Positions 6,524 to 31,541 of a DNA stretch of 64,000 bases are shown one piece after another; the stretch's first letter is position 1, and each line of letters opens with the position of its first letter. The stretch covers positions 124,001 through 188,000 of the forward strand of contig NZ_JADPSA010000029.1 in the NCBI RefSeq assembly GCF_017347085.1, read 5' to 3'. The notes under the pieces are model-generated. The model was not told the DNA's origin. It did not search any database and was given only the letters and a program-made list of their open reading frames with translations. Source of the stretch: Nesterenkonia sp. E16_10 (GTDB taxonomy: Bacteria > Actinomycetota > Actinomycetes > Actinomycetales > Micrococcaceae). Position numbers and translations under genes: made by a program.

Positions 6524-8091
6524 CAGGTCAAGCCTCCATTGCTAGGACGTGGGCGTACATCGGGTGCATCGGGGGAGTCGGGCACGAGCACGGCGGTCTC
6601 GGCGTTCAGGCTCTCCCCGCGGAAGAACGGCAGTGATCCGGACCGGGTCCGCCAGAGCAGCATCAGCACCAGGCCGAGGGCCAGTGAACCGATGCCCACG
6701 ACGAAGGTGCCGCCCACGCCGAGGAGCACGCTGTATCCGTAGTCGACGTCTGCCATGTCGATCGCTGACTTGATGAATGCCGCGCTCAGGATCAAGGCGC
6801 CCAGCAGCGGGAGCAGGAAGCGGAAGACGAAGTTGTGGCCCGAGGTGAACAGCTCTCGGCGGAAGTACCAGACGCAGGCGTACCCGGTGATGGCGTAGTA
6901 GAAGGCGATCGCCAACCCCAGGGACAGGATGGAATCGGCCAGGATGTTCTCGCTGACCAGGGTCATCACCACATAGAACCCGATCCCGGAGATCCCCATG
7001 ACCAGCGTGGAGAAGGACGGGGTCTTGAACCGCGCGTGCACCGTGCTGAACCTGCTCGGCAGCGCCCGGTATACCGCCATGGACAGGGTGCCCCGGGCGG
7101 TGGGCAGGATGGTGGTCTGGGTGGAGGAGACCGCAGAGACGAGCACCGCGACCACGAGCAGCCATGCGGCGGGGCCGAGGACGACATCCTTCAGCGCGAA
7201 GAACACGTCCTCTGCATTGCCCTCGTTTCCCAGGCCGACCCCCTCCTCGCCGACTCCGGCGTACATCATGGCGGCCACGGTGACCCCCACATAGGTGATC
7301 AGCAGCAGCACCGTGGAGATCAGGGCGGCCAGGCCTGGGATTCGACGGGCATCGCGGGTCTCCTCGTTCAGCGCCAGGCAGGCGTCCCAGCCCCAGTAGA
7401 TGAACAGCGCCAGCAGCACCGCCTCGGTGAAACCGGCGAGGCTCTCGAAGGCGAAGGGGTTGAACCAGTCCAGGGACGGTGCGGTGGCGTTCTCGGCGGT
7501 CCCGTTGGCGATCCCGATCAGCGCGAACACCACGAAGAGGCCCAGGGCGAGGTACTGGATTCCCAGCAGGACGTTCTGCAGCTTGGCGCCGATCTCGACC
7601 CCGCGGTAGCTGATGTAGGTCATGGCGGCGATGAAGAAGACCCCGGTGGCGGTGACCACCAGGGAGTTCTCGGCGAGAGAGCCGTCGCCGATCAGCAGCC
7701 AGAGGTAGATTCCGGCGATCTGCGCCAGGTTGGCCAGCACGATGATGCCCGCGACCGCCACACCCCAGCCGGCCATCCAGCCCACCCACGGGCCGAAGGC
7801 CTTGGTGGCCCATGTGAAGGAGGTGCCGCAGTCGGGAATCTCGCGGTTGAGCTCTCGGTAGGCAAAGGCGATGAACAGCATCGGGATGAACGCGAGGATG
7901 AACGCGATGGGCGCCTGAGCTCCGACCGCGAGGACCACGAACCCCAGGGAGGCGGCGAGCGAATAGACCGGTGCGGTGGAGGCGAGTCCGATGACCACCG
8001 ATCCCCAGACGCCGAGCGTGCCGGCGGAGAGACCCTTGCCCGCACCCGGGGGCGCGCCAGGGAGATTCTTCCCGAGAGCTGCCTGACTCAT
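6523..8091 (-). CDS. APC-superfamily amino acid/polyamine permease
   Basis: A 522-residue membrane protein with about twelve hydrophobic helices and the APC signature near the N-terminus (GVWGSVVIGLASTAPVYSL). The ATG at 8091 is chosen because GGAGGAG lies seven bases before it; a longer open frame continues upstream but would run across the operator and into the divergent gene. It shares an operon with the saccharopine dehydrogenase-like gene (ATGA overlap). A 14-bp palindrome between this gene and the divergent TetR gene suggests TetR control of import. Confidence 0.88.
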   Translation of the reverse strand: MSQAALGKNLPGAPPGAGKGLSAGTLGVWGSVVIGLASTAPVYSLAASLGFVVLAVGAQAPIAFILAFIPMLFIAFAYRELNREIPDCGTSFTWATKAFGPWVGWMAGWGVAVAGIIVLANLAQIAGIYLWLLIGDGSLAENSLVVTATGVFFIAAMTYISYRGVEIGAKLQNVLLGIQYLALGLFVVFALIGIANGTAENATAPSLDWFNPFAFESLAGFTEAVLLALFIYWGWDACLALNEETRDARRIPGLAALISTVLLLITYVGVTVAAMMYAGVGEEGVGLGNEGNAEDVFFALKDVVLGPAAWLLVVAVLVSAVSSTQTTILPTARGTLSMAVYRALPSRFSTVHARFKTPSFSTLVMGISGIGFYVVMTLVSENILADSILSLGLAIAFYYAITGYACVWYFRRELFTSGHNFVFRFLLPLLGALILSAAFIKSAIDMADVDYGYSVLLGVGGTFVVGIGSLALGLVLMLLWRTRSGSLPFFRGESLNAETAVLVPDSPDAPDVRPRPSNGGLT

Positions 8092-15881: not shown

Positions 15882-15897
15882 TGTGAAATATGTCATA
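15882..15897. promoter_or_regulatory. CRP-like site at the amine oxidase promoter
   Basis: TGTGAAATATGTCATA matches TGTGA-N6-TCACA at nine of ten conserved positions. It overlaps a second perfect inverted repeat (AAATATGTCATATTT, 15886-15900). It lies between the divergent membrane-protein/aldehyde dehydrogenase operon and the amine oxidase gene, so it could control both. Confidence 0.55.
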
Positions 15898-15903
15898 TTT
15901 ATT

Positions 15904-15921
15904 GTTGAGCGTGCGCTCAAC
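15904..15921. promoter_or_regulatory. TTGAGC-type inverted repeat, candidate operator
   Basis: GTTGAGCGTGCGCTCAAC has 8-bp inverted arms around TG and ends 16 bases before the amine oxidase start. A closely related element (TTGAGCGCATGCTCAA) lies before the AraC-type gene at 19618-19633. The form suits a TetR-type regulator; the TetR gene at 17906-18544 lies between the two sites. Confidence 0.65.
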
Positions 15922-15937
15922 TATAAGGAGGATCACC

Positions 15938-17899
15938 ATGGCTGACAAGACCTCAGACCCGCAGTCCCGCCACCCGCTGACACCGCTCTCGGTCCCCGAG
16001 ATCGAGGCGATGCGCGGCGTGCTGGAACGCGAATCGCTGCTCACCGATGCCACCCGCGTGTCCTACGTGACGCTGCGTGAACCCAGCAAACAAGACGTCA
16101 TCGCTTGGCGCCCCGGGGTGCGGCTGCCGCGTCAGGTGGCGCTGCTGCTCACGGACCTGAGCACGCTGACACTCACCGAGCTGGTGCTCGACCTGGACCG
16201 GGAGGCCGTCGTGGAACGCCGGGAAGTCGACGCGGTGGAGAAGGGCTCGGCCCCGAGCTTCGACGAGGACCTTGCCGGCGCGGACCCGATCGTGAAGGCA
16301 GACCCGCGCTGGGTCGAGGCGGTCGCCAAGCGGGGTGTGACCGATCTGGACAAGGTCGTCGTCGTCGGGCTCTCGGCTGGGATCTTCGGCTATTCCGATG
16401 AGGTCGGGGTGCGCATGGTCCGCGCGCTGGCCTTCCGCCAGGACTACCCGAGCGACTCGGTGTGGGCACATCCGATCGACGGAGTCGTGGCCCACGTGGA
16501 CCTGACGAATAAGAAGGTCCTGCGAGTGGTGGAGACCGAGGTGATGCATGTGCCCGAGGAGTCCGGTGACTACCTGGACCCCGCCGTGCGGGGGGAGTAC
16601 CGCACCTCGCTGAAGCCGATCTCCATCACCCAGCCCGAGGGGGTCAGCTTCAGCCTCCAGGACGGCGTGCTGGCCTGGGAGAACTGGAAGGTCCGGGTCG
16701 GGTTCAACGGCCGCGAGGGTCTGACCCTGCACCAGCTGAGCTTCCATGATCGCGGCGTCGACCGGCCCATCCTCTACCGCGGTTCGATCGCGGAGATGGT
16801 GGTCAACTACGGGGACCCCACGCCCACCCACGCCTGGCAGAACTACTTCGATGTCGGTGAGTACCAGTTCGGTCGGCTCGCCAACGCCTTGGAGCTCGGC
16901 TGTGACTGCAAGGGGGAGATCACCTATGTGGACGCCGTCGTCGTCGATGACCACGGTCGGCCCACGACGTTGCCCAATGCGATCTGCATCCACGAGGAGG
17001 ACTACGGCATCCTCTGGAAGCACACCGACGACTTCTCGGGCACCAGTGAGGTGCGCCGCCAGCGCCGACTCGTGATCTCCTTCTTCGTCACGGTGGGCAA
17101 CTACGACTACGGCTTCTACTGGTACCTCTACCTCGACGGCAAGATCGAGCTGGAGTCCAAGGCCACAGGAATCGTCTTCACCTCCGGCATGCCCTCGCCC
17201 GACTACCCCTACGCCACTGAACTCGCCCCGGGCCTGGGGGCACCCGTGCACCAGCACCTCTTCAGCGCCCGGCTGGACATGACCGTGGACGGGATCAGGA
17301 ACTCGATCGACGAGATCGACGCGGTCCAGGTGCCCACCAGCGAGGAGAACCCCTGGGGCAATGCCTTCACCCGCAGCGTCACCCGGCTGCGCTCGGAGAA
17401 GCAGGCCGTGCGCGACGCCAAGGGCTCGGTGGGACGGGTCTGGCAGATCAGCAGCGCCGAGCATACGAACCGGCTCGGAGCTCCCACCTCGTATCTGCTG
17501 CACCCTGAGGAGAGTCCCACGCTGCTGGCCGCCGAAGACTCCTCGATCCGGCGCCGCGCCGGCTTCGCCGGGCACCACCTGTGGGTGACCCAGCATCATC
17601 CCGACGAGCAGTTCCCGGCCGGTGACCAGGTGAATCTCAACCCTGGATTCGGCGGGCTGCCCAGCTACATCGAGCAGGATCGCTCGCTGGAGGGTGAAGA
17701 CCTGGTGTTGTGGCACACCTTCGGGCTGACCCATTTCCCGCGGACCGAGGACTGGCCGATCATGCCGGTGGACTATGCCGGGTTCACGCTGACCCCCAAC
17801 GGCTTCTTCGACCGCAACCCGACCCTGGACGTGCCCCCGGAACCCTCTGGGCACTGCGCGGCGACCACGGAGGGCTCCGGCGGCTGCGGCTGCAGCTGA
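15938..17899 (+). CDS. tynA: copper-containing primary amine oxidase (TPQ)
   Basis: A 653-residue member of the copper amine oxidase family, close to the Arthrobacter enzymes in length. It oxidises primary amines to aldehyde, ammonia and hydrogen peroxide. The cofactor precursor is Tyr389 in VGNYDYGFYW (consensus N-Y-D/E). Copper ligands are His438 and His440 (VHQH) and His599 (GLTHFPRTEDWPIMP). No signal peptide is seen, so it is probably cytoplasmic. ATG 15938 follows AAGGAGG by six bases. Neighbouring hydroxyphenylacetate genes suggest tyramine, dopamine or phenylethylamine as substrate; histamine cannot be excluded. Confidence 0.94.
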   Translation: MADKTSDPQSRHPLTPLSVPEIEAMRGVLERESLLTDATRVSYVTLREPSKQDVIAWRPGVRLPRQVALLLTDLSTLTLTELVLDLDREAVVERREVDAVEKGSAPSFDEDLAGADPIVKADPRWVEAVAKRGVTDLDKVVVVGLSAGIFGYSDEVGVRMVRALAFRQDYPSDSVWAHPIDGVVAHVDLTNKKVLRVVETEVMHVPEESGDYLDPAVRGEYRTSLKPISITQPEGVSFSLQDGVLAWENWKVRVGFNGREGLTLHQLSFHDRGVDRPILYRGSIAEMVVNYGDPTPTHAWQNYFDVGEYQFGRLANALELGCDCKGEITYVDAVVVDDHGRPTTLPNAICIHEEDYGILWKHTDDFSGTSEVRRQRRLVISFFVTVGNYDYGFYWYLYLDGKIELESKATGIVFTSGMPSPDYPYATELAPGLGAPVHQHLFSARLDMTVDGIRNSIDEIDAVQVPTSEENPWGNAFTRSVTRLRSEKQAVRDAKGSVGRVWQISSAEHTNRLGAPTSYLLHPEESPTLLAAEDSSIRRRAGFAGHHLWVTQHHPDEQFPAGDQVNLNPGFGGLPSYIEQDRSLEGEDLVLWHTFGLTHFPRTEDWPIMPVDYAGFTLTPNGFFDRNPTLDVPPEPSGHCAATTEGSGGCGCS

Positions 17900-19698: not shown

Positions 19699-19873
19699 GG
19701 GAATGTAAAGGGTGGGGCGGGGCAACCGGGCAAGCGCGGTGTGCCGAGAGGTCTCAGCCCGGATCCGCAAGGCCTGTGCACCGTGGTGCAAGAGCCATAC
19801 CTCCGCGTCTCGGGATACTTCGAAGCACCGGCAGCTGCACCCGGCCGGCACCTGCGAAGAGATGGAGCACCTG

Positions 19874-21355
19874 ATGACTGAGCACTCTGCCTCAACCCGG
19901 CCCGCGGCGGTGGCGGACACCGCACTGGCGCGACGCACGCTCGGCGTTCCCGCCCTGGTGTTTCTGATCATCGCCGCATCCGCGCCGCTGACGGTTCTGG
20001 CCGGCGGTGCCACCACCAGTTTCGCGATCACCGCGCAGTCCGGCGTGCCGGTGGGGTACCTGCTGCTGGGCGTGATCCTGGGTCTCTTCGCCGTGGGCTA
20101 CGGTCGGATGAGCACCTACGTGCAGAACGCCGGCGCCTTCTATGCCTATGTGGCTTCGGGGCTCGGCACCCGGCCCGGCATCGGCACCGCATTCCTGGCG
20201 CTGATGACCTATAACGCGATGCAGATCGGCATCTACGGCGTGTTCGGGTTCACCGCGTCCTCCCTCATCGAGGGTCTCTTCGGCGTCACGATCGCCTGGT
20301 GGATCTGCGCTCTGGCCGGGTGGCTGCTGGTGGCCTGGCTGGGTGTGAACCGGATCGACCTCTCCGCGAAGGTGCTCGCGGTCATCGTGTTGCTGGAGTT
20401 CCTCGTCGTGATCGTCGTGAGCCTGCTCTCGCTCTCCGCGGCTCCCGAGGGGGTGACCGCGGCCCCGCTGCTTCCGCAGAACTGGATGAACGGAAGCCTG
20501 GGAGCGCTGCTTGCGTTCGGCATGGCGGCCTTCATGGGCTTCGAGTCCGGAGCGATCTACTCCGAAGAGGCGAAGAACCCGGAACGGTCCGTGGCTCGTG
20601 CCACCTACATCGCCGTCGGGATCATCGCGGTCTTCTATGCAGCATCCTCCTGGGCGCTGGCCATCGGCCTCGGCCCCTCTCAGATCGTGGCGCAGGCCCA
20701 GGAGTGGGGGCCGGACCTGGTCTTCGTCTTCCTCGAGGGCAGGCTCCCGGCCCTGCTGGTCGATCTTGCCGCGGTGCTCTTCCTGACCAGCATCATGGCG
20801 GCACTTGTGGCGTTCCACAATGCCGCCGCCCGGTACTTCTTCTCCATGGGCCGCGCCCGGGTGCTGCCTGCAATTCTGGCGCACACCGGGGCACGCAGCG
20901 GTGCGCCGGTGGTCGGTTCTCTGGTGCAGAGCGGACTCGGGCTCGGCTTCATCCTCATCTTCGCGATCGCCGGGGCCGGATCGGAGCTGGGTCCGCTGTT
21001 CCCGGTGCTGACCATGTTCCCCTGGCTGACCAATGCTGCGGGCTTCGGCCTGGTGCTGCTGCTGTGCATCACCTCCGTGGCGGTGCTGCGCTATTTCAAC
21101 CGAGATCCTGGGCAGCATCCGCTGTTCGTGCGCACCATCGCTCCGCTCTTGGCGGCCATCGGACTGGGCATCATCGCGGTGCTCATCATGTTCAACTTCG
21201 AGGTGATGATCGATTCCTCCAGCTCCCCGGCGCTGGTGGTGATCCTGCCCGGTGTGATCGTGGGATCCGGGGTGGTCGGGCTGCTCTGGGCCCAGTACCT
21301 GCGGGTGAGGCGCCCGGAGGTCTATGAGCGAGTCCGCCAGGCGAACATCGGCTGA
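19874..21355 (+). CDS. APC-superfamily permease, probable aromatic amine/amino acid importer
   Basis: A 493-residue membrane protein with about twelve helices and an APC-type N-terminus (TLGVPALVFLIIAASAPLTVLAGG) plus the FMAAFMGFESGAIYSEEAKNP stretch. ATG 19874 follows GGAG by six bases; upstream open frame is regulatory DNA. It lies divergent from the FeaR-like gene and ahead of the homoprotocatechuate operon, so import of tyramine or a related amine is likely. The protein is distinct from the permease at 6523-8091. Confidence 0.88.
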   Translation: MTEHSASTRPAAVADTALARRTLGVPALVFLIIAASAPLTVLAGGATTSFAITAQSGVPVGYLLLGVILGLFAVGYGRMSTYVQNAGAFYAYVASGLGTRPGIGTAFLALMTYNAMQIGIYGVFGFTASSLIEGLFGVTIAWWICALAGWLLVAWLGVNRIDLSAKVLAVIVLLEFLVVIVVSLLSLSAAPEGVTAAPLLPQNWMNGSLGALLAFGMAAFMGFESGAIYSEEAKNPERSVARATYIAVGIIAVFYAASSWALAIGLGPSQIVAQAQEWGPDLVFVFLEGRLPALLVDLAAVLFLTSIMAALVAFHNAAARYFFSMGRARVLPAILAHTGARSGAPVVGSLVQSGLGLGFILIFAIAGAGSELGPLFPVLTMFPWLTNAAGFGLVLLLCITSVAVLRYFNRDPGQHPLFVRTIAPLLAAIGLGIIAVLIMFNFEVMIDSSSSPALVVILPGVIVGSGVVGLLWAQYLRVRRPEVYERVRQANIG

Positions 21356-21626: not shown

Positions 21627-23114
21627 ATGAGCGCACAAGATCTGGGCACACCGGGCAAGATCGTCGCCGTCCACATCAGCTACGAGTCTCGTGCCGCGGA
21701 ACGGGGCCGACGTCCCGCCACCCCGTCCTACTTCTTCAAGCCGACCAGCTCGCTGGGCGTCTCCGGGGACGCGGTGCAGCGCCCCGGCGGCACCGAGCTG
21801 CTGGCCTTCGAGGGTGAGATCGCGCTGGTCATCGGCACAGAGGCGCGGCAGGTCACCGCCGATCAGGCCTGGGGCCATGTCCGGGCGGTCACCGCGGCCA
21901 ACGACTGGGGGCTCTACGATCTGCGCGCCGCCGACAAGGGCTCCAACGTCCGCAATAAGGGGCGCGACGGCTACACCACGGTCGGTCCGGAGCTCATCGA
22001 CGCCGCCGCGGTGGACCCGACCCAGCTGCGCGTGCGCACCTGGAAGAACGGCCACCTGGTACAGGAGGGCGCCAGCGACTCGATGATCTTCCCGCTGACC
22101 CAGCTCATCGCCGACCTCTCCCAGCACCTGACCCTGCAGCCCGGGGACATCATCCTCACCGGCACCCCGGCGGGCGCCTCCGTGGCGGAGCCAGGGGACA
22201 CCGTCGAGGTCGAGGTGGACGCGGCCGGCGGGCTCAGCAGCGGCCGGCTGATCAGTCCGGTCACCGAGGTTCCGGGAGAGTTCGATCCCGCACTGGGATC
22301 TCTGCCCACCGTGGATGACACCCAGCGCGAAGAGGCCTGGGGCTCTCGCGAGGCGGCCGGACTCCCGCCGAAGCAGGCTCCCGGGGTGCACGCCGAGCTG
22401 CGCGCCGTGCTCGAGCAGGTGCCGGTGGCCGCGCTCTCCCAGGAGATGCGCCGACGCGGCTACAACAACGTCACCATCGACGGCGTGCGCGCCACCCGGC
22501 CAGGCGCCACGCTCATCGGCACCGCGCGGACCCTGCGCTTCCTGCCCCACCGTGAAGACCTCTTCGCCTCCCACGGCGGCGGCTTCAACGCGCAGAAACA
22601 GGTGTTCGACTCCGTGGACCCGGGCGAGGTCATCGTGATCGAGGCCCGCGGTGAGCGCGGCTCCGGCACCCTCGGAGACATCCTGGCGCTGCGCGCCCTG
22701 CACCGCGGTGCGGCCGGCGTCGTGACCGACGGAGGGGTGCGCGACTACTCCACCGTGGCTGAGATCGGTCTTCCGGTGTTCAGCCAGGGCCCGCACCCAG
22801 CGGTGCTGGGCCGCAAGCACGTGCCCTGGGACGCGGACCTCACCGTGGCCTGCGGCGGGGCCACCGTCCAGCCCGGGGATGTCATCGTCGGCGACGACGA
22901 CGGCGTGATCGTGCTTCCCGCGGCGATCGCCGCGGAGGTGGCCCAGGCGGCGTTGGTCAAGGAGACCGAGGACGCCTGGGTCGCGGAGCAGGTCCGGGCC
23001 GGACACCCGGTAGACGGGCTGTTCCCGATGAACTCGACCTGGCGGGCCCGCTACGAGATGGAGCAGGGGCGCGCCGGCGCCGAGGCCCCGGTCGAAGCCG
23101 GAGAAGGTCCGTGA
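21627..23114 (+). CDS. FAH-family hydrolase fused to RraA-like domain (HpaG-type)
   Basis: A 495-residue fusion. Residues about 10-225 are a fumarylacetoacetate hydrolase-fold domain with metal-binding EGEIALVIG, the NDWGLYDLR segment and LTGTPAG, as in HpaG, which decarboxylates and isomerises the ring-cleavage product. Residues about 265-460 are RraA/HMG-aldolase-like, with GDILALRALHRGAAG followed by VVTDGGVRDY carrying the family's Arg-Asp pair. Classical HpaG has two FAH-like halves instead. RraA-fold enzymes can decarboxylate oxo-acids, so this domain may supply the decarboxylase step. ATG 21627 follows GAGGAGGAG. First gene of the operon. Confidence 0.85.
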   Translation: MSAQDLGTPGKIVAVHISYESRAAERGRRPATPSYFFKPTSSLGVSGDAVQRPGGTELLAFEGEIALVIGTEARQVTADQAWGHVRAVTAANDWGLYDLRAADKGSNVRNKGRDGYTTVGPELIDAAAVDPTQLRVRTWKNGHLVQEGASDSMIFPLTQLIADLSQHLTLQPGDIILTGTPAGASVAEPGDTVEVEVDAAGGLSSGRLISPVTEVPGEFDPALGSLPTVDDTQREEAWGSREAAGLPPKQAPGVHAELRAVLEQVPVAALSQEMRRRGYNNVTIDGVRATRPGATLIGTARTLRFLPHREDLFASHGGGFNAQKQVFDSVDPGEVIVIEARGERGSGTLGDILALRALHRGAAGVVTDGGVRDYSTVAEIGLPVFSQGPHPAVLGRKHVPWDADLTVACGGATVQPGDVIVGDDDGVIVLPAAIAAEVAQAALVKETEDAWVAEQVRAGHPVDGLFPMNSTWRARYEMEQGRAGAEAPVEAGEGP

Positions 23115-23773
23115 TCCGGATCGACGAGCGGATCAGCAAGTCCGAGCTGACCTACGACTGGATCCGCGAGCGCATCATCGGCCGCGAGTTCAACCCCGGC
23201 TACCGGCTGGTCCTGGGCGCCATCGCCAAGGAGCTGGGCATCAGCGTGGTTCCGGTCCGCGAGGCGGTGCGCCGGCTCGAGGCCGAAGGGCTGATCGAGT
23301 TCGAGCGCAACGTGGGGGCCCGGGTCGCGATGGTGAACCAGGACGAGTACATCGACACCATGCAGACCCTCGGCGTGCTGGAGGGTGCCGCCACCGCGCT
23401 GGCGCTGCCGCTGATGAGCGAGGCCGACCTCGCCCGTGCCCAGGCGATCAACAATTCCATGCGCGCGATGCTGGAGGACTTCGACCCGGTGGCCTTCACC
23501 TCGCTCAACGAGAAGTTCCACCGGGCTCTCTTCCAGCGCTGCCCCAACCCGCACATCTCCGAGCTCGCCGACCGCGGCTGGAACCGGATGTCCGGTCTGC
23601 GCAGCTCCACCTTCGCCTTCGTCCCGGACCGGGCACCCCGCTCGGTGCAGGAACACGACGACATCCTGACACTCATCCGCGAGAACGCCGAGCCGCTGGA
23701 GATCGAGCTGGCCGTGCGCCAGCACAAATGGCGCACCGTCGAGGCCTACCGCCAGCAGCGCACCTCTTCCTAA
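23111..23773 (+). CDS. GntR-family (FCD) regulator of the hpa operon
   Basis: A 220-residue regulator. The N-terminal winged helix shows LGAIAKELGISVVPVREAVRRLEAEGLIEF in register (recognition helix SVVPVREAV), and the rest is an all-helical FCD ligand domain with His and Asp residues suited to metal and organic-acid binding (LNEKFHRAL, QEHDDIL). It starts at GTG overlapping the previous stop (GTGA), so it is coupled to the FAH-RraA gene. A pathway intermediate is the likely inducer. Confidence 0.9.
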   Translation: MIRIDERISKSELTYDWIRERIIGREFNPGYRLVLGAIAKELGISVVPVREAVRRLEAEGLIEFERNVGARVAMVNQDEYIDTMQTLGVLEGAATALALPLMSEADLARAQAINNSMRAMLEDFDPVAFTSLNEKFHRALFQRCPNPHISELADRGWNRMSGLRSSTFAFVPDRAPRSVQEHDDILTLIRENAEPLEIELAVRQHKWRTVEAYRQQRTSS

Positions 23774-23788
23774 GGAGACCCACCAGAG

Positions 23789-25294
23789 ATGAACGACTAC
23801 CAGAGCCCCGTCCCGGCCGATCTGCCGGATCGGATCCAGCACTACATCGACGGCGAGCTCCTCGACTCGGCCGAGGGCGGCAGCTTCGAGGTGCTCAACC
23901 CGGTCACCAACGAGGTCTACGTCAGCGCCGCCGCCGGGACGAAGGCCGACGTCGACCTCGCCGTCGCCGCTGCCGCCCGGGCCTTCGAGACCGGACCCTG
24001 GCGTGAGACGCTGCCCCGGGAACGCTCCCGGGTGCTGCACCGGATCGCTGATCTCGTCGAGTCTCGCGGCGACCGGCTCGCCGAGCTGGAGTCCTTCGAC
24101 TCCGGGCTGCCCATCACCCAGGCGCTCGGGCAGGCCAGACGCGCCGCGGAGAACTTCCGCTTCTTCGCCGACCTGATCGTCGCCCAGGCCGATGACGTCT
24201 ATAAGGTGCCGGGTCGCCAGATCAACTATGTCAGCCGCAAGCCCATCGGGGTGGCCGGTCTGATCACGCCGTGGAACACCCCGTTCATGCTGGAGAGCTG
24301 GAAGCTGGCCCCCGCCCTTGCCGCGGGCAACTCGGTGGTGCTCAAACCCGCCGAGTTCACGCCGCTCTCCGCCAGCCTCTGGGCCGAGATCTTCGAGGAG
24401 GCAGGACTGCCCAAGGGCGTGTTCAACCTGGTCAACGGGCTCGGTGAGCAGGCCGGGGATGCCTTGGTGAAACACCCCGACGTGCCGCTGATCTCCTTCA
24501 CCGGAGAATCCAGCACCGGGCAGATCATCTTCGCCAACGCGGCACCGGCGCTGAAGGGGCTCTCCATGGAGCTCGGCGGGAAGTCGCCCGCCGTGGTCTT
24601 CGCCGATGCGGACCTTCAGGCGGCCGTCAACGCCACCATCTTCGGGGTGTTCTCGCTCAACGGCGAGCGCTGCACCGCGGGCAGCCGGATCCTGGTGGAA
24701 CGCAGCATCTATGCGGAGTTCCTCGAGCGCTACGCCGCTCAGGCCGAACGGGTCAAGGTGGGGCTGCCGCACGAGCCCGGCACCGAGGTCGGCGCCCTGG
24801 TGCACCCGGAGCACTTCGAGAAGGTCATGAGCTACATCGAGATCGGCAAGCAGGAGGCCCGGCTGGTCGCCGGCGGCGGCCGCCCCGAAGGGTTCCCCAC
24901 CGGCAACTTCGTGGCTCCCACGGTCTTCGCCGACGTCGCGCCCGAGGCAAGGATCTTCCAGGAGGAGATCTTCGGTCCGGTCGTGGCGATCACCCCCTTC
25001 GACTCCGATGAGGAGGCGCTTGAGCTGGCCAACAACACCAAGTACGGGCTGGCCGCATATATCTGGACCAATGACCTCAAACGCTCGCACAACTTCGCCC
25101 AATCGGTCCAGGCAGGCATGGTCTGGCTGAACTCCAACAACGTCCGTGACCTGCGCACCCCCTTCGGCGGGGTCAAGGCCTCCGGACTGGGCCATGAGGG
25201 CGGCTACCGGTCGCTGGACTTCTACACCGACCAGCAGGCCGTGCACATCAACCTCGGCGAGGTCCACAACCCGGTCTTCGGCAAGGCCGACTGA
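23789..25294 (+). CDS. hpaE: 5-carboxymethyl-2-hydroxymuconate semialdehyde dehydrogenase
   Basis: A 501-residue aldehyde dehydrogenase matching HpaE in length and context. It shows TPWNTPFMLESWKLAPAL, LKPAEFTPLSA, SFTGESSTGQII, the base region MELGGKSPAVVF, the catalytic Cys in LNGERCTAGSRIL and EEIFGPVVAI. HpaE oxidises the semialdehyde made by homoprotocatechuate ring cleavage, using NAD+. AAGGAG precedes the ATG by 11 bases. The specific function rests on its place between the FAH-RraA, GntR and hpaD genes. Confidence 0.9.
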   Translation: MNDYQSPVPADLPDRIQHYIDGELLDSAEGGSFEVLNPVTNEVYVSAAAGTKADVDLAVAAAARAFETGPWRETLPRERSRVLHRIADLVESRGDRLAELESFDSGLPITQALGQARRAAENFRFFADLIVAQADDVYKVPGRQINYVSRKPIGVAGLITPWNTPFMLESWKLAPALAAGNSVVLKPAEFTPLSASLWAEIFEEAGLPKGVFNLVNGLGEQAGDALVKHPDVPLISFTGESSTGQIIFANAAPALKGLSMELGGKSPAVVFADADLQAAVNATIFGVFSLNGERCTAGSRILVERSIYAEFLERYAAQAERVKVGLPHEPGTEVGALVHPEHFEKVMSYIEIGKQEARLVAGGGRPEGFPTGNFVAPTVFADVAPEARIFQEEIFGPVVAITPFDSDEEALELANNTKYGLAAYIWTNDLKRSHNFAQSVQAGMVWLNSNNVRDLRTPFGGVKASGLGHEGGYRSLDFYTDQQAVHINLGEVHNPVFGKAD

Positions 25295-25484: not shown

Positions 25485-26594
25485 ATGACTGACACCCCCA
25501 CCCAGGATCGGATCCCGACCCCCGCCTCCCCGCCGCCGGACATCCTGCGCTGCGCCTATATGGAGCTGATCGTGACCGATCTGCAGCGCTCCCGGGACTT
25601 CTATGTCGACGTCCTGGACCTCACGGTCACCGCCGAGGACGAGGACGCGATCTACCTGCGCTCCATGGAGGAGTTCATCCACCACAACCTGGTGCTGCGC
25701 CGCGGCGAGCAGGCCGCCGTCGCCGCCTTCTCCTACCGGGTCCGCGCCCCGGAGGACCTGGACAAGGCCGAGGCCTTCTACACCGAGCTTGGCTGCGAGG
25801 TCATCCGCAACAGGGAAGGCTTCACCCGCGGCATCGGGGACTCCGTCCGAGTCCAGGACCCGCTGGGCTTCCCCTACGAGTTCTTCCACGACGTCGAGCA
25901 CGTGGAGCGCCTGGCGTGGCGCTACGACCTCTACACGCCCGGCGCCCTGGTCCGGCTGGATCACTTCAACCAGGTCACCCCGGACGTGCCCAAGGCCGTG
26001 GCCTATATGGAGGACCTCGGCTTCCGGGTCACCGAGGACATCCAGGACGAGCACGGCACCACCTATGCGGCCTGGATGCGGCGCAAGCCCACGGTGCACG
26101 ACACCGCGATGACCGGTGGCGCCGGACCTCGGATGCACCACGTGGCCTTCGCGACGCATGAGAAGCACAACGTGCTCGCCATCTGCGACAAGCTCGGGGC
26201 GCTGCGGCTCTCCGATCACATCGAGCGCGGCCCGGGCCGTCACGGCGTCTCCAACGCCTTCTACCTCTACATCCGTGACCCCGACGGGCACCGGATCGAG
26301 ATCTATACCCAGGACTACTACACCGGAGACCCGGACAACCCGGTGGTCACCTGGGACGTGCATGACAACCAGCGCCGTGACTGGTGGGGCAACCCGGTGG
26401 TCCCGTCCTGGTACACCGAGGCCTCCACGGTGCTGGACCTGCATGGTCGCCCGGTGCCCTCGGTGGAGCGCACGGAGAACTCCGAGATGGATGTGACCAT
26501 CGGCGCCGACGGGTTCTCCTATACCCGCAAGGAGGACGAGGAGTCCATGCCCTCCGGGAAACAGGGCGAGTACAAGCTGGGCCACCAGCTCTGA
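25485..26594 (+). CDS. hpaD: 3,4-dihydroxyphenylacetate 2,3-dioxygenase
   Basis: A 369-residue type I extradiol dioxygenase that opens the homoprotocatechuate ring next to the diol. The 2-His-1-carboxylate metal site is His160 (RLDHFNQVTP), His219 (MHHVAF) and Glu272 (HRIEIYTQDYY). The spacings of 59 and 53 residues equal those I recall for the Arthrobacter Mn enzyme and the Brevibacterium Fe enzyme (155, 214, 267). Sequence alone does not decide Mn versus Fe. The frame is open further upstream, but ATG 25485 gives the normal N-terminus. Confidence 0.94.
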   Translation: MTDTPTQDRIPTPASPPPDILRCAYMELIVTDLQRSRDFYVDVLDLTVTAEDEDAIYLRSMEEFIHHNLVLRRGEQAAVAAFSYRVRAPEDLDKAEAFYTELGCEVIRNREGFTRGIGDSVRVQDPLGFPYEFFHDVEHVERLAWRYDLYTPGALVRLDHFNQVTPDVPKAVAYMEDLGFRVTEDIQDEHGTTYAAWMRRKPTVHDTAMTGGAGPRMHHVAFATHEKHNVLAICDKLGALRLSDHIERGPGRHGVSNAFYLYIRDPDGHRIEIYTQDYYTGDPDNPVVTWDVHDNQRRDWWGNPVVPSWYTEASTVLDLHGRPVPSVERTENSEMDVTIGADGFSYTRKEDEESMPSGKQGEYKLGHQL

Positions 26595-26640: not shown

Positions 26641-27426
26641 ATGCTGACCCCAGAACAGATCACCGCCATCGCCGACGAGCTCGCGGCGGCCGAGGCGCAG
26701 CGCAGCACGATTCCGCTGCTGACCGCCCGCCACCCCGAGATGACCATCGAGGACTCCTACGCGGTGCAGAACGAATGGCGACGCCGCGCCGTCGCCTCGG
26801 GCCGCCGGATGGTGGGCCGCAAGATCGGGCTCACCTCCAAGGTCATGCAGGTGGCCACCGGGATCACCGAACCCGACTACGGGGCGATCTTCGACGACAT
26901 GGTCTTCGAGAACGGCTCGGTGATCGAGCACGACCGCTTCTCCAACGTCCGCATCGAGGTCGAGCTCGCCTTCAAGCTCGGCAAGCCGCTGAAGGGCCCC
27001 GGGATCACGGTCTTCGACGTCCTGGATGCCACGGACTACGTGGTCCCCGCGCTGGAGATCCTCTCCAGTCGGATCGAGATGGCCGGACGCACCATCGTGG
27101 ACACCATCAGCGACAACGCCGCGATGGGCGCCATGGTCTACGGCGGCACCCCGGTCGCCCCGGATGCGGTGGACCTGCGCTGGGTCTCCGCGCTGCTCTA
27201 CCGCAACGAGACCATCGAGGAGTCCGGCGTCGCCGCGGCCGTGCTGAACCATCCTGCGATGGGCGTGGTCTGGCTGGCGAACAAGCTCGCCTCCCATGGC
27301 GACAGCCTGGCCGCCGGCGAGCTGATCCTCGCCGGCTCCTTCACCCGACCGATGTGGGTGGAGCCCGGGGACACCGTGACCTGTGACTACAAAGAGCTGG
27401 GAACCCTGACATGCCGCTTCAACTGA
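26641..27426 (+). CDS. hpaH: 2-oxo-hept-4-ene-1,7-dioate hydratase
   Basis: A 261-residue member of the hydratase/decarboxylase family related to FAH enzymes. It contains GRKIGLTSKVMQVATGI, the metal-site segment RIEVELAFKLGKPL and late SHGDSLAAGELILAGSF. HpaH adds water to 2-oxo-hept-4-enedioate to make the aldolase substrate. GGAGAAG precedes the ATG. It overlaps hpaI by 16 bases, so the two steps are translated together. Confidence 0.92.
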   Translation: MLTPEQITAIADELAAAEAQRSTIPLLTARHPEMTIEDSYAVQNEWRRRAVASGRRMVGRKIGLTSKVMQVATGITEPDYGAIFDDMVFENGSVIEHDRFSNVRIEVELAFKLGKPLKGPGITVFDVLDATDYVVPALEILSSRIEMAGRTIVDTISDNAAMGAMVYGGTPVAPDAVDLRWVSALLYRNETIEESGVAAAVLNHPAMGVVWLANKLASHGDSLAAGELILAGSFTRPMWVEPGDTVTCDYKELGTLTCRFN

Positions 27427-28196
27427 CCCCTACCCTGCGCGAGGAGCTCGCCGCCGCCGACCGTGCGCTGATCGGCGGCTGGGTCTGCTCCGGGTCACCC
27501 GTGATGGCCGAGATCATGGCCGGCTCCGGCCTCGACCTGGTGCTCATCGACATGGAACACGCCCCCAACGGGTTGGAGTCCGTGCTCGCCCAGCTGCATG
27601 CGCTCTCCGGCTACCCGGTGACCCCGCTGGTCAGGCTCTCCTCCGACGATCCGGTCAGCATCAAACAGGTGCTGGACCTCGGCGTGCAGAATCTGCTGAT
27701 CCCGATGATCTCCACCCCCGAACAGGCCCGCGCGGTCGCCGCGGCGACCCAGTACCCGCCGGCCGGTCGGCGCGGGATCGGCAACGCCCTGGCCCGCTCC
27801 GGGCGCTGGAACCGGGTGCAGAACTATCTCGACGACGCCGCCGCCCACATCAGCGTCTATCTTCAGATCGAGACCATGCAGGGGGTCGAGAACGCCGAGG
27901 CCATCGCCGCGGTGGAGGGCATCGACGGGATCTTCGCCGGTCCCAGCGATCTCTCGGCCTCGATGGGTCTGCTCGGTCAGCAGACCCACCCCCAGGTGGT
28001 CGAGGCCGTGAAGGCCACCTTCGGCGCCGCGCAGCGTGCCGGCGCCACGGCCGGCGTCAACGCCTTCGATCCAGCGGCCGCCCGGGACTACCTCGACGCC
28101 GGAGCGTCCTGGGTGCTCGTGGGCGCCGACGTCACGCTCGTGGCCCGCGGCTCGGAGCAGCTCGCCGCCGACTTCATCCCACGCACCGCTCACTGA
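27411..28196 (+). CDS. hpaI: 4-hydroxy-2-oxoheptanedioate aldolase
   Basis: A 261-residue class II aldolase of the HpcH/HpaI family. It splits 4-hydroxy-2-oxoheptanedioate into pyruvate and succinate semialdehyde. Visible signatures are LVLIDMEHAPNG, a His/Arg-containing loop (RRGIGNALARSGRW), QIETMQGVENAE with the metal-binding Glu, and FAGPSDLSASMG with the metal-binding Asp. It overlaps hpaH and is followed 10 bases later by the flavin monooxygenase gene. Confidence 0.93.
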   Translation: MPLQLTPTLREELAAADRALIGGWVCSGSPVMAEIMAGSGLDLVLIDMEHAPNGLESVLAQLHALSGYPVTPLVRLSSDDPVSIKQVLDLGVQNLLIPMISTPEQARAVAAATQYPPAGRRGIGNALARSGRWNRVQNYLDDAAAHISVYLQIETMQGVENAEAIAAVEGIDGIFAGPSDLSASMGLLGQQTHPQVVEAVKATFGAAQRAGATAGVNAFDPAAARDYLDAGASWVLVGADVTLVARGSEQLAADFIPRTAH

Positions 28197-28206
28197 GGAG
28201 TCCTCC

Positions 28207-30138
28207 ATGCAGTTCCACCACCACGGCTACGTCTCCAAGAACCCGCGCGTGCAAGCACCCGCCGGCATCGGATTGGAACGCCCGCAGGAGCTTCCCGAGC
28301 ACATGGACGTGCTCATCGTGGGCACCGGCCCGGCCGGGATGATCGCCGCCGCACAGCTGGCGCAGTTCGCCGAGGTCCATACCCGCATCATCGAGAAGCG
28401 CGCAGGCCGCCTGGAGGTCGGGCAGGCCGACGGCATCCAGGCGCGCAGCGTGGAGACCTTCCAGGCCTTCGGCTTCGCGGACGAGATCTCCAACGAGGCG
28501 TACCACATCACCGAGATGGCGTTCTGGAAGCCCAACCCCGAGGCGCCGGAGGACATCGTGCGCACCGCGCGTCCCGCCGATGATCCGCACGGGATCAGCG
28601 AGTTCCCGCACCTGATCGTCAACCAGGCGCGGGTGCTGGACTACTTCGGAGAGTCCATGGCCAACTCGCCCTCCCGGATGGCCCCAGACTTCGGCTGGGA
28701 GTTCGTGGACCTGACCGTGCACGAGTCCGGGGAGCACCCGGTCGAGGTGACGCTGCGCCGCACCGCCGGCACCGATGGCGACGCGACCGGCGCCGCCGCC
28801 GGAGCCTCAGCCGAGCCGGGGGAGCAGCGCACCGTCTGGGCGAGGTATGTGCTCGGCGCCGACGGGGCCCGCAGCGGGGTGCGTGCAGCGATCGGTCGAA
28901 CCCTGGAAGGGGACAAGGCCAACCATGCCTGGGGCGTGATGGACGTCCTGGCGGTCACCGACTTCCCGGATATCCGCCGCAAATGCGCCATCCAGTCGCG
29001 TTCCGGAGGCAGCATCCTGCTGATCCCGCGGGAGGGCGGACACCTGTTCCGGATGTATGTGGACCTCGGGGAGGTCCAGCCCGGAGAGGGCGCGCAGGTC
29101 CGGCAGACCAGCATCGAGACGATCATCGACCACGCCAACCGGATCATGCACCCCTATACGGTGGAGGTCAAGCACGTGGCCTGGCACAGCGTCTACGAGG
29201 TCGGTCACCGGGTGACGGACAGGTTCGACGACGTGCCCGCCGAGCTCGCCGCGCAGCGCACCCCGCGGGTGTTCATCGCCGGGGACGCCTGCCACACGCA
29301 CAGCGCGAAGGCCGGGCAGGGGATGAACGTGTCCATGCAGGACGGCTTCAACCTCGGCTGGAAACTGGGACAGGTGCTCACCGGACGCAGCCCGGCGGCC
29401 CTGCTGAGCACCTATTCGGACGAGCGTCAGGTGATCGCGCAGAACCTGATCGACTTCGACAAGAAGTGGTCCACCCTGATGGCGCAGAAGCCCGAAGAGA
29501 TGGAGGACCCCTCCGCACTGGAGGACTTCTATGTCAAGACCATCGAGTTCCCCGCCGGATTCATGACCGAATACACCCCCTCGATGATCACCGGGAGGGC
29601 CACCCATCAGGCGCTGGCCACCGGCTATCCAGTGGGCAAACGGTTCAAGTCCGCCCTGGTCTCCCGGGTCTGCGACGGCAACCCGCTGCAGCTGGGACAC
29701 CTCGCCACGGCAGACGGCCGCTGGCGGATCTACGCCTTCGCCGACGCCCCCGCCGCGGGTGCGCCCTCGGCGCTCACCGACTGGGCGCACTGGCTGCACA
29801 CCGACCCCGGATCACCGGTGCTGCGCCACACCCCGGCAGCCCAGGACGAGGACACGCTCTTCGACATCAAGGTGATCTATCAGCAGCCGCATGAAACCTT
29901 CGACGTCACCGAGGCGCCGCGCGCGTTCCTACCCACGGTGGGACCCTTCGGGCTCACCGCCCGGGACCGGATCTTCGGCACCCACCCCGAGCAGGACATC
30001 TTCAGCGAGCGCGGGATCAGCCGGGAAGGCTGCGTCGTCGTCGTGCGACCCGACCAATACGTCGCCCACGTGTTGCCGCTGACAGAGACCGCGGCGCTGA
30101 GCGCCTTCTTCGCCGGAATCTTCATGGAGGCCATCTGA
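28207..30138 (+). CDS. FAD-dependent aromatic monooxygenase, MobA/phenol hydroxylase type
   Basis: A 643-residue class A flavin monooxygenase. It has the ADP-binding GTGPAGMIAAAQ, GQADGIQARSVETF, the DG motif GADGARSGVR, FAD-ribityl site FIAGDACHTHSAKAGQGMN, and a C-terminal thioredoxin-like domain (about 480-640). Its N-terminus (FHHHGYVSKNPRV) closely resembles 3-hydroxybenzoate 4-monooxygenase. No two-component HpaBC is present, so this enzyme is the candidate that forms homoprotocatechuate from 3- or 4-hydroxyphenylacetate. Which isomer it accepts is unresolved. TGATG links it to the next gene. Confidence 0.9.
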   Translation: MQFHHHGYVSKNPRVQAPAGIGLERPQELPEHMDVLIVGTGPAGMIAAAQLAQFAEVHTRIIEKRAGRLEVGQADGIQARSVETFQAFGFADEISNEAYHITEMAFWKPNPEAPEDIVRTARPADDPHGISEFPHLIVNQARVLDYFGESMANSPSRMAPDFGWEFVDLTVHESGEHPVEVTLRRTAGTDGDATGAAAGASAEPGEQRTVWARYVLGADGARSGVRAAIGRTLEGDKANHAWGVMDVLAVTDFPDIRRKCAIQSRSGGSILLIPREGGHLFRMYVDLGEVQPGEGAQVRQTSIETIIDHANRIMHPYTVEVKHVAWHSVYEVGHRVTDRFDDVPAELAAQRTPRVFIAGDACHTHSAKAGQGMNVSMQDGFNLGWKLGQVLTGRSPAALLSTYSDERQVIAQNLIDFDKKWSTLMAQKPEEMEDPSALEDFYVKTIEFPAGFMTEYTPSMITGRATHQALATGYPVGKRFKSALVSRVCDGNPLQLGHLATADGRWRIYAFADAPAAGAPSALTDWAHWLHTDPGSPVLRHTPAAQDEDTLFDIKVIYQQPHETFDVTEAPRAFLPTVGPFGLTARDRIFGTHPEQDIFSERGISREGCVVVVRPDQYVAHVLPLTETAALSAFFAGIFMEAI

Positions 30139-31541
30139 TGACTGCTGACCACGCACAAGACCGCATGCTCGCGGTGCGCAACCCCGCCACCGGAGCCGTC
30201 CTTGACCAGGTTCACGACCACTCCGCGGAGCAGGCCGCAGCCATAGTCGACGCCGCGGCGGCCGGATTCCGCTCCTGGCGCGGCACCACGCCCCGGCAGC
30301 GCTCCGAGGTGCTCATGGCGGCCTTCCACGGCATGCGCGAACAGGCGCAGCGGCTCCGGGACCTGATCGTGGCCGAGAACGGAAAGTCCCAGGCCGACGC
30401 CGCCGCCGAGGTCAGCTACGCCGCCGAGTTCTTCCGCTGGTACGCCGAAGAGGCGGTGCGCAGCCCGGGGGACTACACCGAGGCGCCGGCGGGGGGAGTG
30501 CGCAACGTGGTCACCCGGCACCCGGTGGGCATCGCGGTGCTGATCACCCCCTGGAACTTCCCTGCCGCGATGGCTACGCGCAAGATCGGCCCTGCGCTGG
30601 CGGCGGGGTGCGCGGTGCTGCTCAAACCCGCGAGTGAGACTCCGCTGACCGCCTTCGCGATCGCCGAGATCCTCACCGAGGCCGGGGTCCCGGAAGGGGT
30701 GGTCCAGGTTGCGGCGTCGAGCTCCGCGAGCCGTGTGGTCACCGCCTGGCTCGCCGATGACCGGGTGCGCAAGCTCTCCTTCACCGGCTCCACCGGAGTC
30801 GGCAGGCGGCTGCTGGCGCAGTGTGCTGAACGTGTGGTCAACACCTCCATGGAGCTGGGCGGAAATGCGCCGTTCATCGTGACCTCCGGGGCCGACATCG
30901 ACGCCGCCGTGGACGGAGCGATGCTCGCGAAGTTCCGCAACGGGGGTCAGGCCTGTACCGCGGCGAACCGCTTCTACATCCACCAGGACGTGCTGGGGGA
31001 GTTCACCGAGAAGTTCGGTGCCCGGATCGCACAGCTGCGCGTGGGCGATCCGGCCTCCGGCGCAGACATCGGCCCGATGATCACCGAGCAGGCGGCGCAG
31101 GAGATTCGCGGACTGATCCGGCGGGCGACCGAGCAGGGCGCGGTCATCGCCGCCCAGGCGCACCTGCCGGAGGGGGCCACTGGAGCGTTCCTCGCCCCGA
31201 CCCTGCTCACGGGCGTGCCGCTGGACGCAGAGATCCTCCGCGAGGAGATCTTCGGGCCGGTGGCCCCCGTGGTGGCCTGGACCGATCTGGACGCCGTCAT
31301 CGAACTGGCCAATGCCGCGGAGGTCGGGCTCTCCGCCTATGTCTATGCCGGCAAGCTGCAGACCGCGATGAAGATCGCAGAACGGCTCGAGGCCGGAATG
31401 GTCGGGATCAACCGCGGGATCGTCTCGGACCCCAGCGCGCCCTTCGGTGGGGTCAAGCAGGCAGGAATCGGCCGCGAGGGCGGGGACTTCGGCATGGAGG
31501 AGTTCACCGAGGTGCAGTACCTGAGCGTCGATTGGTCCTGA
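30138..31541 (+). CDS. succinate-semialdehyde dehydrogenase-like ALDH
   Basis: A 467-residue aldehyde dehydrogenase of the GabD type: TPWNFPAAMATRKIGPALAA, LLKPASETPLTAFA, SFTGSTGVGRRLL, MELGGNAPFIV, catalytic Cys in GGQACTAANRFYIH, and EEIFGPVAPV. As the last gene of the hpa operon it most likely oxidises the succinate semialdehyde released by HpaI to succinate, which feeds the citric acid cycle. ATG 30138 overlaps the monooxygenase stop (TGATG). Confidence 0.9.
   Translation: MTADHAQDRMLAVRNPATGAVLDQVHDHSAEQAAAIVDAAAAGFRSWRGTTPRQRSEVLMAAFHGMREQAQRLRDLIVAENGKSQADAAAEVSYAAEFFRWYAEEAVRSPGDYTEAPAGGVRNVVTRHPVGIAVLITPWNFPAAMATRKIGPALAAGCAVLLKPASETPLTAFAIAEILTEAGVPEGVVQVAASSSASRVVTAWLADDRVRKLSFTGSTGVGRRLLAQCAERVVNTSMELGGNAPFIVTSGADIDAAVDGAMLAKFRNGGQACTAANRFYIHQDVLGEFTEKFGARIAQLRVGDPASGADIGPMITEQAAQEIRGLIRRATEQGAVIAAQAHLPEGATGAFLAPTLLTGVPLDAEILREEIFGPVAPVVAWTDLDAVIELANAAEVGLSAYVYAGKLQTAMKIAERLEAGMVGINRGIVSDPSAPFGGVKQAGIGREGGDFGMEEFTEVQYLSVDWS

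Follow-up and report, generated by a model that had tools for sequence, protein, structure and literature searches.

A fused FAH-RraA protein appears to replace the usual enzymes of the middle steps of homoprotocatechuate breakdown in many actinobacteria

Known enzymes of the FAH and RraA folds

Among the usual enzymes of the middle steps in the breakdown of homoprotocatechuate (HPC), a product of tyrosine, is HpaG, which has the fumarylacetoacetate hydrolase (FAH) fold. The C-terminal half of classical HpaG has been assigned as the decarboxylase (PMC12718150), an assignment described in that paper as based on crystal structures without experimental validation. In assays of ten FAHD enzymes elsewhere, oxaloacetate tautomerisation was the main activity, decarboxylation being on average about 20,000-fold weaker, and the D102A R106A variant of FAHD1 was inactive, its tautomerase activity being lost (PMC10825186). 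In FAHD1, Lys123 and Gln109 have also been assigned parts in tautomerisation and decarboxylation, and a water is held by its lid dyad.

That RraA-fold enzymes can decarboxylate oxo-acids, as the original prediction for this locus assumed, agrees with published work on two proteins. HMG/CHA aldolase decarboxylates oxaloacetate, and its R123K variant has a kcat on HMG lowered 181-fold (PMC5065237). FlDet, an RraA-family protein of Flavobacterium sp. UMI-01 with 26% identity to RraAS2, turns a 2-keto-3-deoxyhexarate into alpha-ketoglutaric semialdehyde, H2O and CO2 being lost; Mg2+, Co2+ and Ni2+ activate it, whereas EDTA has no effect (PMC8563752).

A two-domain protein in a homoprotocatechuate operon

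The window analysed here is a 64,000-nucleotide stretch of the genome of Nesterenkonia sp. E16_10. At positions 21627..23114 (+ strand), a single frame with no internal stop, with GGAGGAG just 5' of its ATG at 21627 and its stop at 23114, encodes a 495-aa protein that is indeed the predicted fusion of an FAH and an RraA domain. Residues 12-203 (21660..22235, +) match the Pfam family FAA_hydrolase (PF01557, 167.4 bits for a cut-off of 23.9), and residues 268-429 (22428..22913, +) match the RraA-like family (PF03737, 115.8 bits for a cut-off of 24.5) and carry Gly350-Asp351, Arg372-Asp373 and His390. The gap between the two matches is an interdomain linker (residues 204-267; 22236..22427, +) of lower conservation, with a mean pairwise identity of 0.637 (residues 206-255) against 0.772 and 0.742 for the regions on either side (residues 11-205 and 256-476). 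The AlphaFold2 model has two confident domains (mean pLDDT 83.9), and their relative placement is unsure because the pTM is only 0.52. In Foldseek searches, the first domain matched HpcE of Thermus (1wzo) and E. coli (1i7o), while the nearest solved structure to the second was RraAS2 of Streptomyces coelicolor (5x15).

The closest named relative among the matches listed is a Nesterenkonia aurantiaca protein (96% identity). Both domains lie in the same frame in all 80 relatives fetched (the best 80 of 545 matches), and all but one of these 80, the exception being L099 with one stop, have no stop between the domains. A chance read-through of two genes was ruled out by these same-frame relatives, together with the 97 of 347 genomes of the order that hold a protein over the fusion cut-off. 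At one locus (genome G679, L181, 10190-11646), the FAH and RraA parts are in separate frames that meet in the linker, which may reflect a sequencing frameshift or a gene that is genuinely split.

The architecture is already catalogued by NCBI, without a function. The fusion passed NCBIfam NF009399 (PRK12764) with 803.7 bits (cut-off 444) over residues 7-481, spanning both domains; this family has the same two-domain architecture and is called 'fumarylacetoacetate hydrolase family protein', a name that gives no reaction. A plain classical HpaG label was dropped, as the curated cut-offs were not reached by the fusion, either for the two halves (TIGR02303, C-half, 147.6 against 276.4; TIGR02305, N-half, 96.4 against 228.65) or for PRK15203 (122.1 against 811). 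The PRK08245 subfamily model NF006093 was passed (219.6, cut-off 208), and those of HMG/CHA aldolase (TIGR02798, 83.2 against 304.5; NF006731, 91.3 against 179) and of the RNase E regulator RraA (NF006875, 50.8 against 136; TIGR01935, 48 against 123.8) were not. Membership in the FAH superfamily is borne out by the PF01557 match and a Glu-x-Glu...Asp metal triad, and the Gly-Asp and Arg-Asp residues of the metal/pyruvate site of HMG/CHA aldolases are kept (Gly350, Asp351, Arg372 and Asp373); the lid-helix His-x-x-Glu dyad of the FAHD1/HpaG-C type is absent from the fusion.

The genes around the fusion, all on the + strand, run in the order amine oxidase and permease, fusion, GntR, HpaE, HpaD, HpaH, HpaI, FAD monooxygenase and succinate-semialdehyde dehydrogenase-like protein. 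A copper amine oxidase (15890..17899; PF01179, NF008559 over cut-off), for which tyramine or phenylethylamine as substrate would be a guess, and an amino acid permease-like protein (19712..21355; PF00324) precede the fusion, and a GntR/FCD regulator (23111..23773) shares 4 bases with it at its stop codon. The homoprotocatechuate setting claimed in the original prediction holds for HpaE (23789..25294; TIGR02299, 649.6 bits, cut-off 638.35), the HPC 2,3-dioxygenase HpaD (25539..26594; TIGR02295, 429.1 bits, cut-off 321.4) and the hydratase HpaH (26641..27426; TIGR02312, 363.4 bits, cut-off 351.5), all over their cut-offs; the aldolase HpaI (27411..28196; PF03328) has TIGR02311 as its best match, below cut-off (280.1 against 368.8). 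The HpaD start at 25539 is where the family match begins, a Met codon lying 54 bases upstream at 25485. The last two genes encode an FAD monooxygenase of the PRK08294 'phenol 2-monooxygenase' subfamily (28207..30138; NF006144, 1015.6 bits, cut-off 560) and a succinate-semialdehyde dehydrogenase-like protein (30138..31541; TIGR01780, 504.1 bits, below the cut-off of 646.35). Relatives of this one-component monooxygenase were seen near the fusion in 55 of 80 loci (best 80 of 545), and it is a candidate 4-hydroxyphenylacetate 3-monooxygenase, an enzyme left unlocated in the Arthrobacter arilaitensis genome paper.

Distribution and linkage to hpa genes

Proteins over the NF009399 cut-off occur in 97 of 347 genomes of the order and in 8 of 396 genomes of the phylum, and HpaD over its cut-off in 102 of the 347. 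In a count that ignores kinship, 95 of the 347 have both, 7 HpaD alone, 2 the fusion alone and 243 neither; the search for the same fusion in other actinobacterial hpa operons, proposed as a check with the original prediction, thus found it in 95 of the 102 HpaD-positive genomes of the order. The HpaG position claimed for the fusion is likewise borne out across these operons, the starts of the fusion and hpaD genes lying less than 5 kb apart on one contig in 94 of the 95 genomes having both. The lone exception is G650, with the two genes on different contigs. Near the fusion were found HpaE in 79, HpaD in 78, GntR in 77, HpaH in 73 and HpaI in 71 of 80 loci (the best 80 of 545), some of whose flanks were cut by contig ends. 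Among the plasmid matches listed (the best 50 of 1065 records and the best 50 of 494 records), both domains at an identity of at least 59% were present in records of Rhodococcus, Paenarthrobacter, Arthrobacter and Embleya, and plasmid members of the fusion's RraA subfamily are still annotated as RNase regulators. A literature search, mainly outside subscription journals, found no title or abstract opening describing an FAH-RraA fusion or a function for it.

The missing HpaF

The interpretation of the fusion as an HpaG replacement fits its position in the operon, but it did not consider that the missing gene is that of the isomerase HpaF (CHM isomerase, CHMI; PF02962). This family was found in only 2 of 347 genomes of the order, in three copies; both genomes also bear the fusion, and the 20 kb read on account of each copy showed no hpa gene around it. 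The window's own genome (98.75% complete) had no match to PF02962, nor to PF01361, the 4-oxalocrotonate tautomerase (4-OT)-type family. An insensitive PF02962 model was ruled out as the cause: of eight plasmid records searched it matched five, among them every one of the four in which a CHMI is annotated. The idea that these bacteria have no tautomerase at all was dropped as a general rule, since PF01361 was present in 5 of 7 fusion-bearing genomes checked, where it might serve as isomerase; nor would such an absence be a rule for all actinobacteria, because a Rhodococcus HPC cluster has been drawn with a 4-oxalocrotonate tautomerase (PMC6498646).

Gene sets elsewhere also qualify the statement that standard HpaG consists of two FAH halves, which does not hold everywhere. 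In the Klebsiella record the FAH proteins are encoded by two distinct genes, with HpaF also present, and in Deinococcus (four loci read, of eight among the matches listed) a single FAH gene adjoins CHMI in three loci, the fourth (L230) having no HpaF match on its record. By comparison with these gene sets, the pair of FAH and RraA seems to do the work for which others use HpaF and one or two FAHs. A Sphingobium locus (L199) was considered as an FAH-only, CHMI-free pathway, a candidate weakened by a CHMI on the same plasmid far from the cluster.

Conservation of the two active sites

The metal triad of the FAH domain (Glu62, Glu64 and Asp93) and Lys111 are kept in all 81 fused proteins aligned, that is, 79 of the 80 fetched loci (best 80 of 545; L099 left out), the window and one plasmid copy. 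The Glu-x-Glu motif is absent from the N-half of Klebsiella HpaG and present in its C-half, and the fused FAH domain scores higher on the HpaG C-half (147.6 bits) than on the N-half (96.4). The dyad His position is Arg22 in 81 of 81, and position 25 is Gln in 76 and Glu in five, the window's protein and L033, L034, L035 and L039; His and Glu occupy positions 22 and 25 in Klebsiella HpaG-C, in the Deinococcus FAH and in an FAHD1-like paralogue of the window's own genome. Matched by spacing, Arg106 and Gln109 of FAHD1 are Tyr97 and Arg100 in the fusion, and these replacements, considered with the inactive D102A R106A FAHD1, suggest that the fused FAH is no canonical tautomerase. Judged by its residues, the fused FAH has kept metal competence and its fold would suit an isomerase, while other active-site residues differ from those of FAHD1 and HpaG-C.

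Stand-alone FAH proteins were also seen in the phylum. A group of 21 (L012-L032) has Arg22, Glu25, His97 and Arg100 in 21 of 21, and nine of these adjoin a GntR-like gene. Among eight stand-alone FAH loci read wider, six of them from this group, none had an RraA match and seven had an HpaE-like dehydrogenase in the stretch covered. At another locus (L207), a stand-alone FAH adjoins a LigB-like dioxygenase (TIGR02298, 119.8 bits, below the cut-off of 315.95). A Rhodococcus erythropolis plasmid (L198, 6989-8200) encodes an FAH with a shortened RraA-like tail in which no Arg-Asp was seen, with a VOC protein adjoining and a second FAH nearby.

The Arg-Asp signature of the RraA domain was found intact, as had been claimed: Gly350-Asp351 and Arg372-Asp373 are kept in all 114 fused rows, which include near-copies and the window's own locus and exclude the basal L188 and one row with a stop, and likewise in all eight of the related RraAs that are solo or split. 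His390 is present in 112 of the 114 fused rows, with Thr in 12 of 16 outgroup rows; its role as a specific acid-base residue would be a guess.

Proposed function and its alternatives

In many actinobacteria, a single fused protein of two unrelated folds appears to replace the usual enzymes of the HPC middle steps. Given its co-occurrence with HpaD and the presence of CHM isomerase in only 2 of 347 genomes, the fusion most likely accounts for all the steps between HpaE and HpaH; it would be the actinobacterial equivalent of HpaG, taking the HpaE product 5-carboxymethyl-2-hydroxymuconate (CHM) to the HpaH substrate 2-oxohept-3-ene-1,7-dioate (OHED). In the proposed mechanism, the RraA domain would decarboxylate OPET, with Mg2+ on Asp373 chelating its 2-oxo acid, Arg372 steadying the enolate and C5 losing CO2 in the manner of a vinylogous beta-keto acid. 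By analogy, the dehydrated intermediate of FlDet and OPET would both be 2-oxo-3-enoates losing a C5 carboxylate, with the same electron sink. The FAH domain would act as a keto-enol isomerase, turning CHM into OPET and/or HHDD into OHED, and would thereby account for the dispensability of HpaF; such a role comes naturally to an FAH domain considering the tautomerase activity dominant in the FAHD enzymes assayed (PMC10825186). We infer these reactions and their split between the domains from the observed domains, conserved residues, operon place and HpaF absence. RraA as the decarboxylase and FAH as the isomerase is a tentative assignment, close to evenly balanced in our judgement, and weakly favoured over FAH as the decarboxylase. 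The replacement of the FAH His-Glu dyad by Arg22 and Gln25 would count for it, whereas the metal triad shared with the HpaG half assigned as decarboxylase, Glu25 in the window's own fused FAH and the departure of that domain from a canonical tautomerase would count against it.

The strongest alternative reverses the roles: FAH would be the OPET decarboxylase, like the C-half of HpaG, and RraA a metal-dependent tautomerase standing in for HpaF, with CHM converted to OPET, for the metal-free N-half of HpaG, with HHDD converted to OHED, or for both. The closeness of the fused FAH to HpaG-C rather than HpaG-N and its invariant triad are in its favour. So is a subtraction of gene sets, from two FAHs plus CHMI (Klebsiella) and one FAH plus CHMI (three of four Deinococcus loci) to FAH plus RraA mostly without CHMI in actinobacteria; the Deinococcus arrangement in particular suggests that RraA may fill the isomerase (CHMI) slot. 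The lack of PF02962 and PF01361 matches in the window's own genome is consistent with it, as is the joint absence of FAH and HpaE from six RraA-only loci (see below), as if FAH served the HpaE product. An RraA fold can also enolise, since with phosphate the exchange of pyruvate protons by HMG/CHA aldolase is fast (PMC5065237, Table 2). However, the dyad His kept by Klebsiella HpaG-C is lost in the fused FAH, FAHD enzymes are weak in oxaloacetate decarboxylation (PMC10825186), and RraA-family decarboxylation has been published while our literature search turned up no RraA tautomerase. CHM is also said to isomerise spontaneously (PMC12718150), so that a dedicated isomerase would be less needed than a decarboxylase. 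On balance, FAH as the decarboxylase is unlikely, though a serious contender.

It is less probable that the work is shared, neither domain being active alone and the composite both decarboxylating and isomerising, like the Acinetobacter OPETD-HHDDI complex. In A. baumannii, OPETD and HHDDI are separate FAH proteins that depend on one another, the complex being 60-fold more active than OPETD by itself and 12-fold more active than HHDDI by itself (PMC12718150), and in the fusion both metal sites are kept and the two domains are similarly conserved (mean identities of 0.772 and 0.742). Shared work is difficult to reconcile with the RraA genes free of FAH that occur in one genus, at loci in six genomes, and at a second locus of G562, or with the G679 domains in different frames, and the pTM of 0.52 gives no support to a fixed interface in the monomer model.

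More improbable still is that RraA cleaves another pathway compound, by deformylation of a semialdehyde or as an aldolase, and is carried along while FAH does the work of HpaG. The RraA domain is related to HMG/CHA aldolase (3noj), and there are RraA-only clusters without HpaE, from which, HpaE lacking, a C1 unit might leave as formate. Yet the operon already has the aldolase HpaI, the HMG/CHA aldolase model TIGR02798 was far from passed (83.2 against 304.5), and HpaE accompanies the fusion in 79 of 80 loci (best 80 of 545). Finally, an RNase E/ES regulator fused by accident, suggested by the title of the RraAS2 structure, which places it in the RNase ES inhibitor family, is very improbable and was rejected, with scores on the regulator models well short of their cut-offs (NF006875, 50.8 against 136), Arg-Asp kept in 114 of 114 rows and a catabolic setting for the fusion loci read.

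RraA without FAH

The proposal that RraA acts as decarboxylase draws on a group of clusters in one genus (g254), in which HpaD', a solo RraA and HpaI lie together in six genomes (L175-L180), with HpaH in five of these and missing at L177. No match to FAH or HpaE was found in the 20 kb read at these loci (tblastn, E up to 1e-8), and no HpaF was found near them. The solo RraAs are 64-69% identical to the RraA domain of the window, and HpaD' is 37-39% identical to its HpaD (four aligned) and keeps the RGPGRHG and HRIE motifs. Genome-wide, none of the six has HpaE over cut-off, other aldehyde dehydrogenases scoring 410 to 484 bits on the HpaE model in each; none has the FAD monooxygenase over cut-off, and PF01361 had no match in five of the six checked. 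In the RraA tree, the rows of this genus fall inside the fusion clade, L175 and L176 joining the fused L167 at 99/97; other joins are weaker, the bootstrap not being settled and several solo rows having long branches. RraA seems to be separable from FAH, and the place of these clusters inside the fusion clade suggests that it can serve the pathway without FAH.

These clusters can be read in two ways. RraA can be seen as the indispensable, carbon-removing decarboxylase, which requires an unlinked dehydrogenase; or FAH can be seen as the decarboxylase, needed only where HpaE makes a removable carboxylate, which requires a different substrate. Because HpaE and the monooxygenase are lacking over cut-off, the substrate in this genus may indeed differ and RraA perhaps does not decarboxylate there. 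For the same reason, the clusters were not adopted as an HPC pathway, although HpaD' keeps its motifs.

A further locus (L189) has RraA, HpaD' and dehydrogenases, one nearest to phenylacetaldehyde dehydrogenase, with no FAH or HpaH match nearby. Its aldolase (5887-6837), which adjoins the solo RraA, is DapA-like (best match TIGR02313, 312.2 bits against a cut-off of 396.7) and a by-eye similar protein adjoins the fusion at L188 (3604-4611); the two perhaps stand in for HpaI. L189 leans weakly towards RraA as the indispensable decarboxylase, but a stand-alone FAH is present elsewhere in its genome (L208). In G562, a second, solo RraA is followed by GntR, HpaH and HpaI (L182, 9737-12695); an amidohydrolase-2 and an FAD monooxygenase are also near, and no ring-cleavage gene was seen among the ORFs scanned.

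Taken as a whole, the most far-reaching proposal is that the RraA fold took over the decarboxylase step across actinobacteria, leaving FAH as the isomerase and HpaF dispensable, and that in one genus RraA does the HpaD-to-HpaH block alone, FAH and HpaE having been shed. We consider it possible, with rather less than even confidence. If true, it would be a clear case of one fold displacing another within a well-known pathway, spanning a large actinobacterial group with HpaF-less HPC clusters, and would provide a function for NF009399 and for an RraA subfamily labelled as RNase regulators. With naturally occurring RraA-only clusters, how the domains divide the work is open to direct test.

Comparison with known systems

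The fusion resembles E. coli HpaG/HpcE (1gtt/1i7o), and the separate HpaG1 and HpaG2, in operon position, FAH fold and the metal triad of the C-half; it differs in having RraA in place of the second FAH half, in the loss of the dyad His and in the absence of an HpaF gene. The single-FAH HpcE of Thermus (1wzo) and the Deinococcus operon FAH have one FAH domain, 35-40% identical to that of the fusion, but with His and Glu at positions 22 and 25, and the latter lies beside CHMI in three of four loci. With the FAHD oxaloacetate tautomerases (FAHD1/2, YcgM and YisK; PMC10825186), the fusion has in common the FAH fold and the metal Asp, and their tautomerisation is the kind of reaction proposed for its FAH half, whereas Arg106, Gln109 and the dyad His of FAHD1 are replaced by Tyr97, Arg100 and Arg22.

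On the RraA side, HMG/CHA aldolase-oxaloacetate decarboxylase (3noj) shares with the fusion the fold and the Gly-Asp and Arg-Asp motifs, while His390, Arg396 and Lys324 of the fusion are Asn, Lys and His in the aldolase (alignment of one segment). FlDet, compared here by its published description (PMC8563752), belongs to the same family but is stand-alone and acts on a sugar acid. The hpaGLEDHI-gabD2 cluster of Corynebacterium aurimucosum has a gene order like that of the Nesterenkonia operon, and its authors place the hpaF function elsewhere, at cauri_0890 (PMC2830990).
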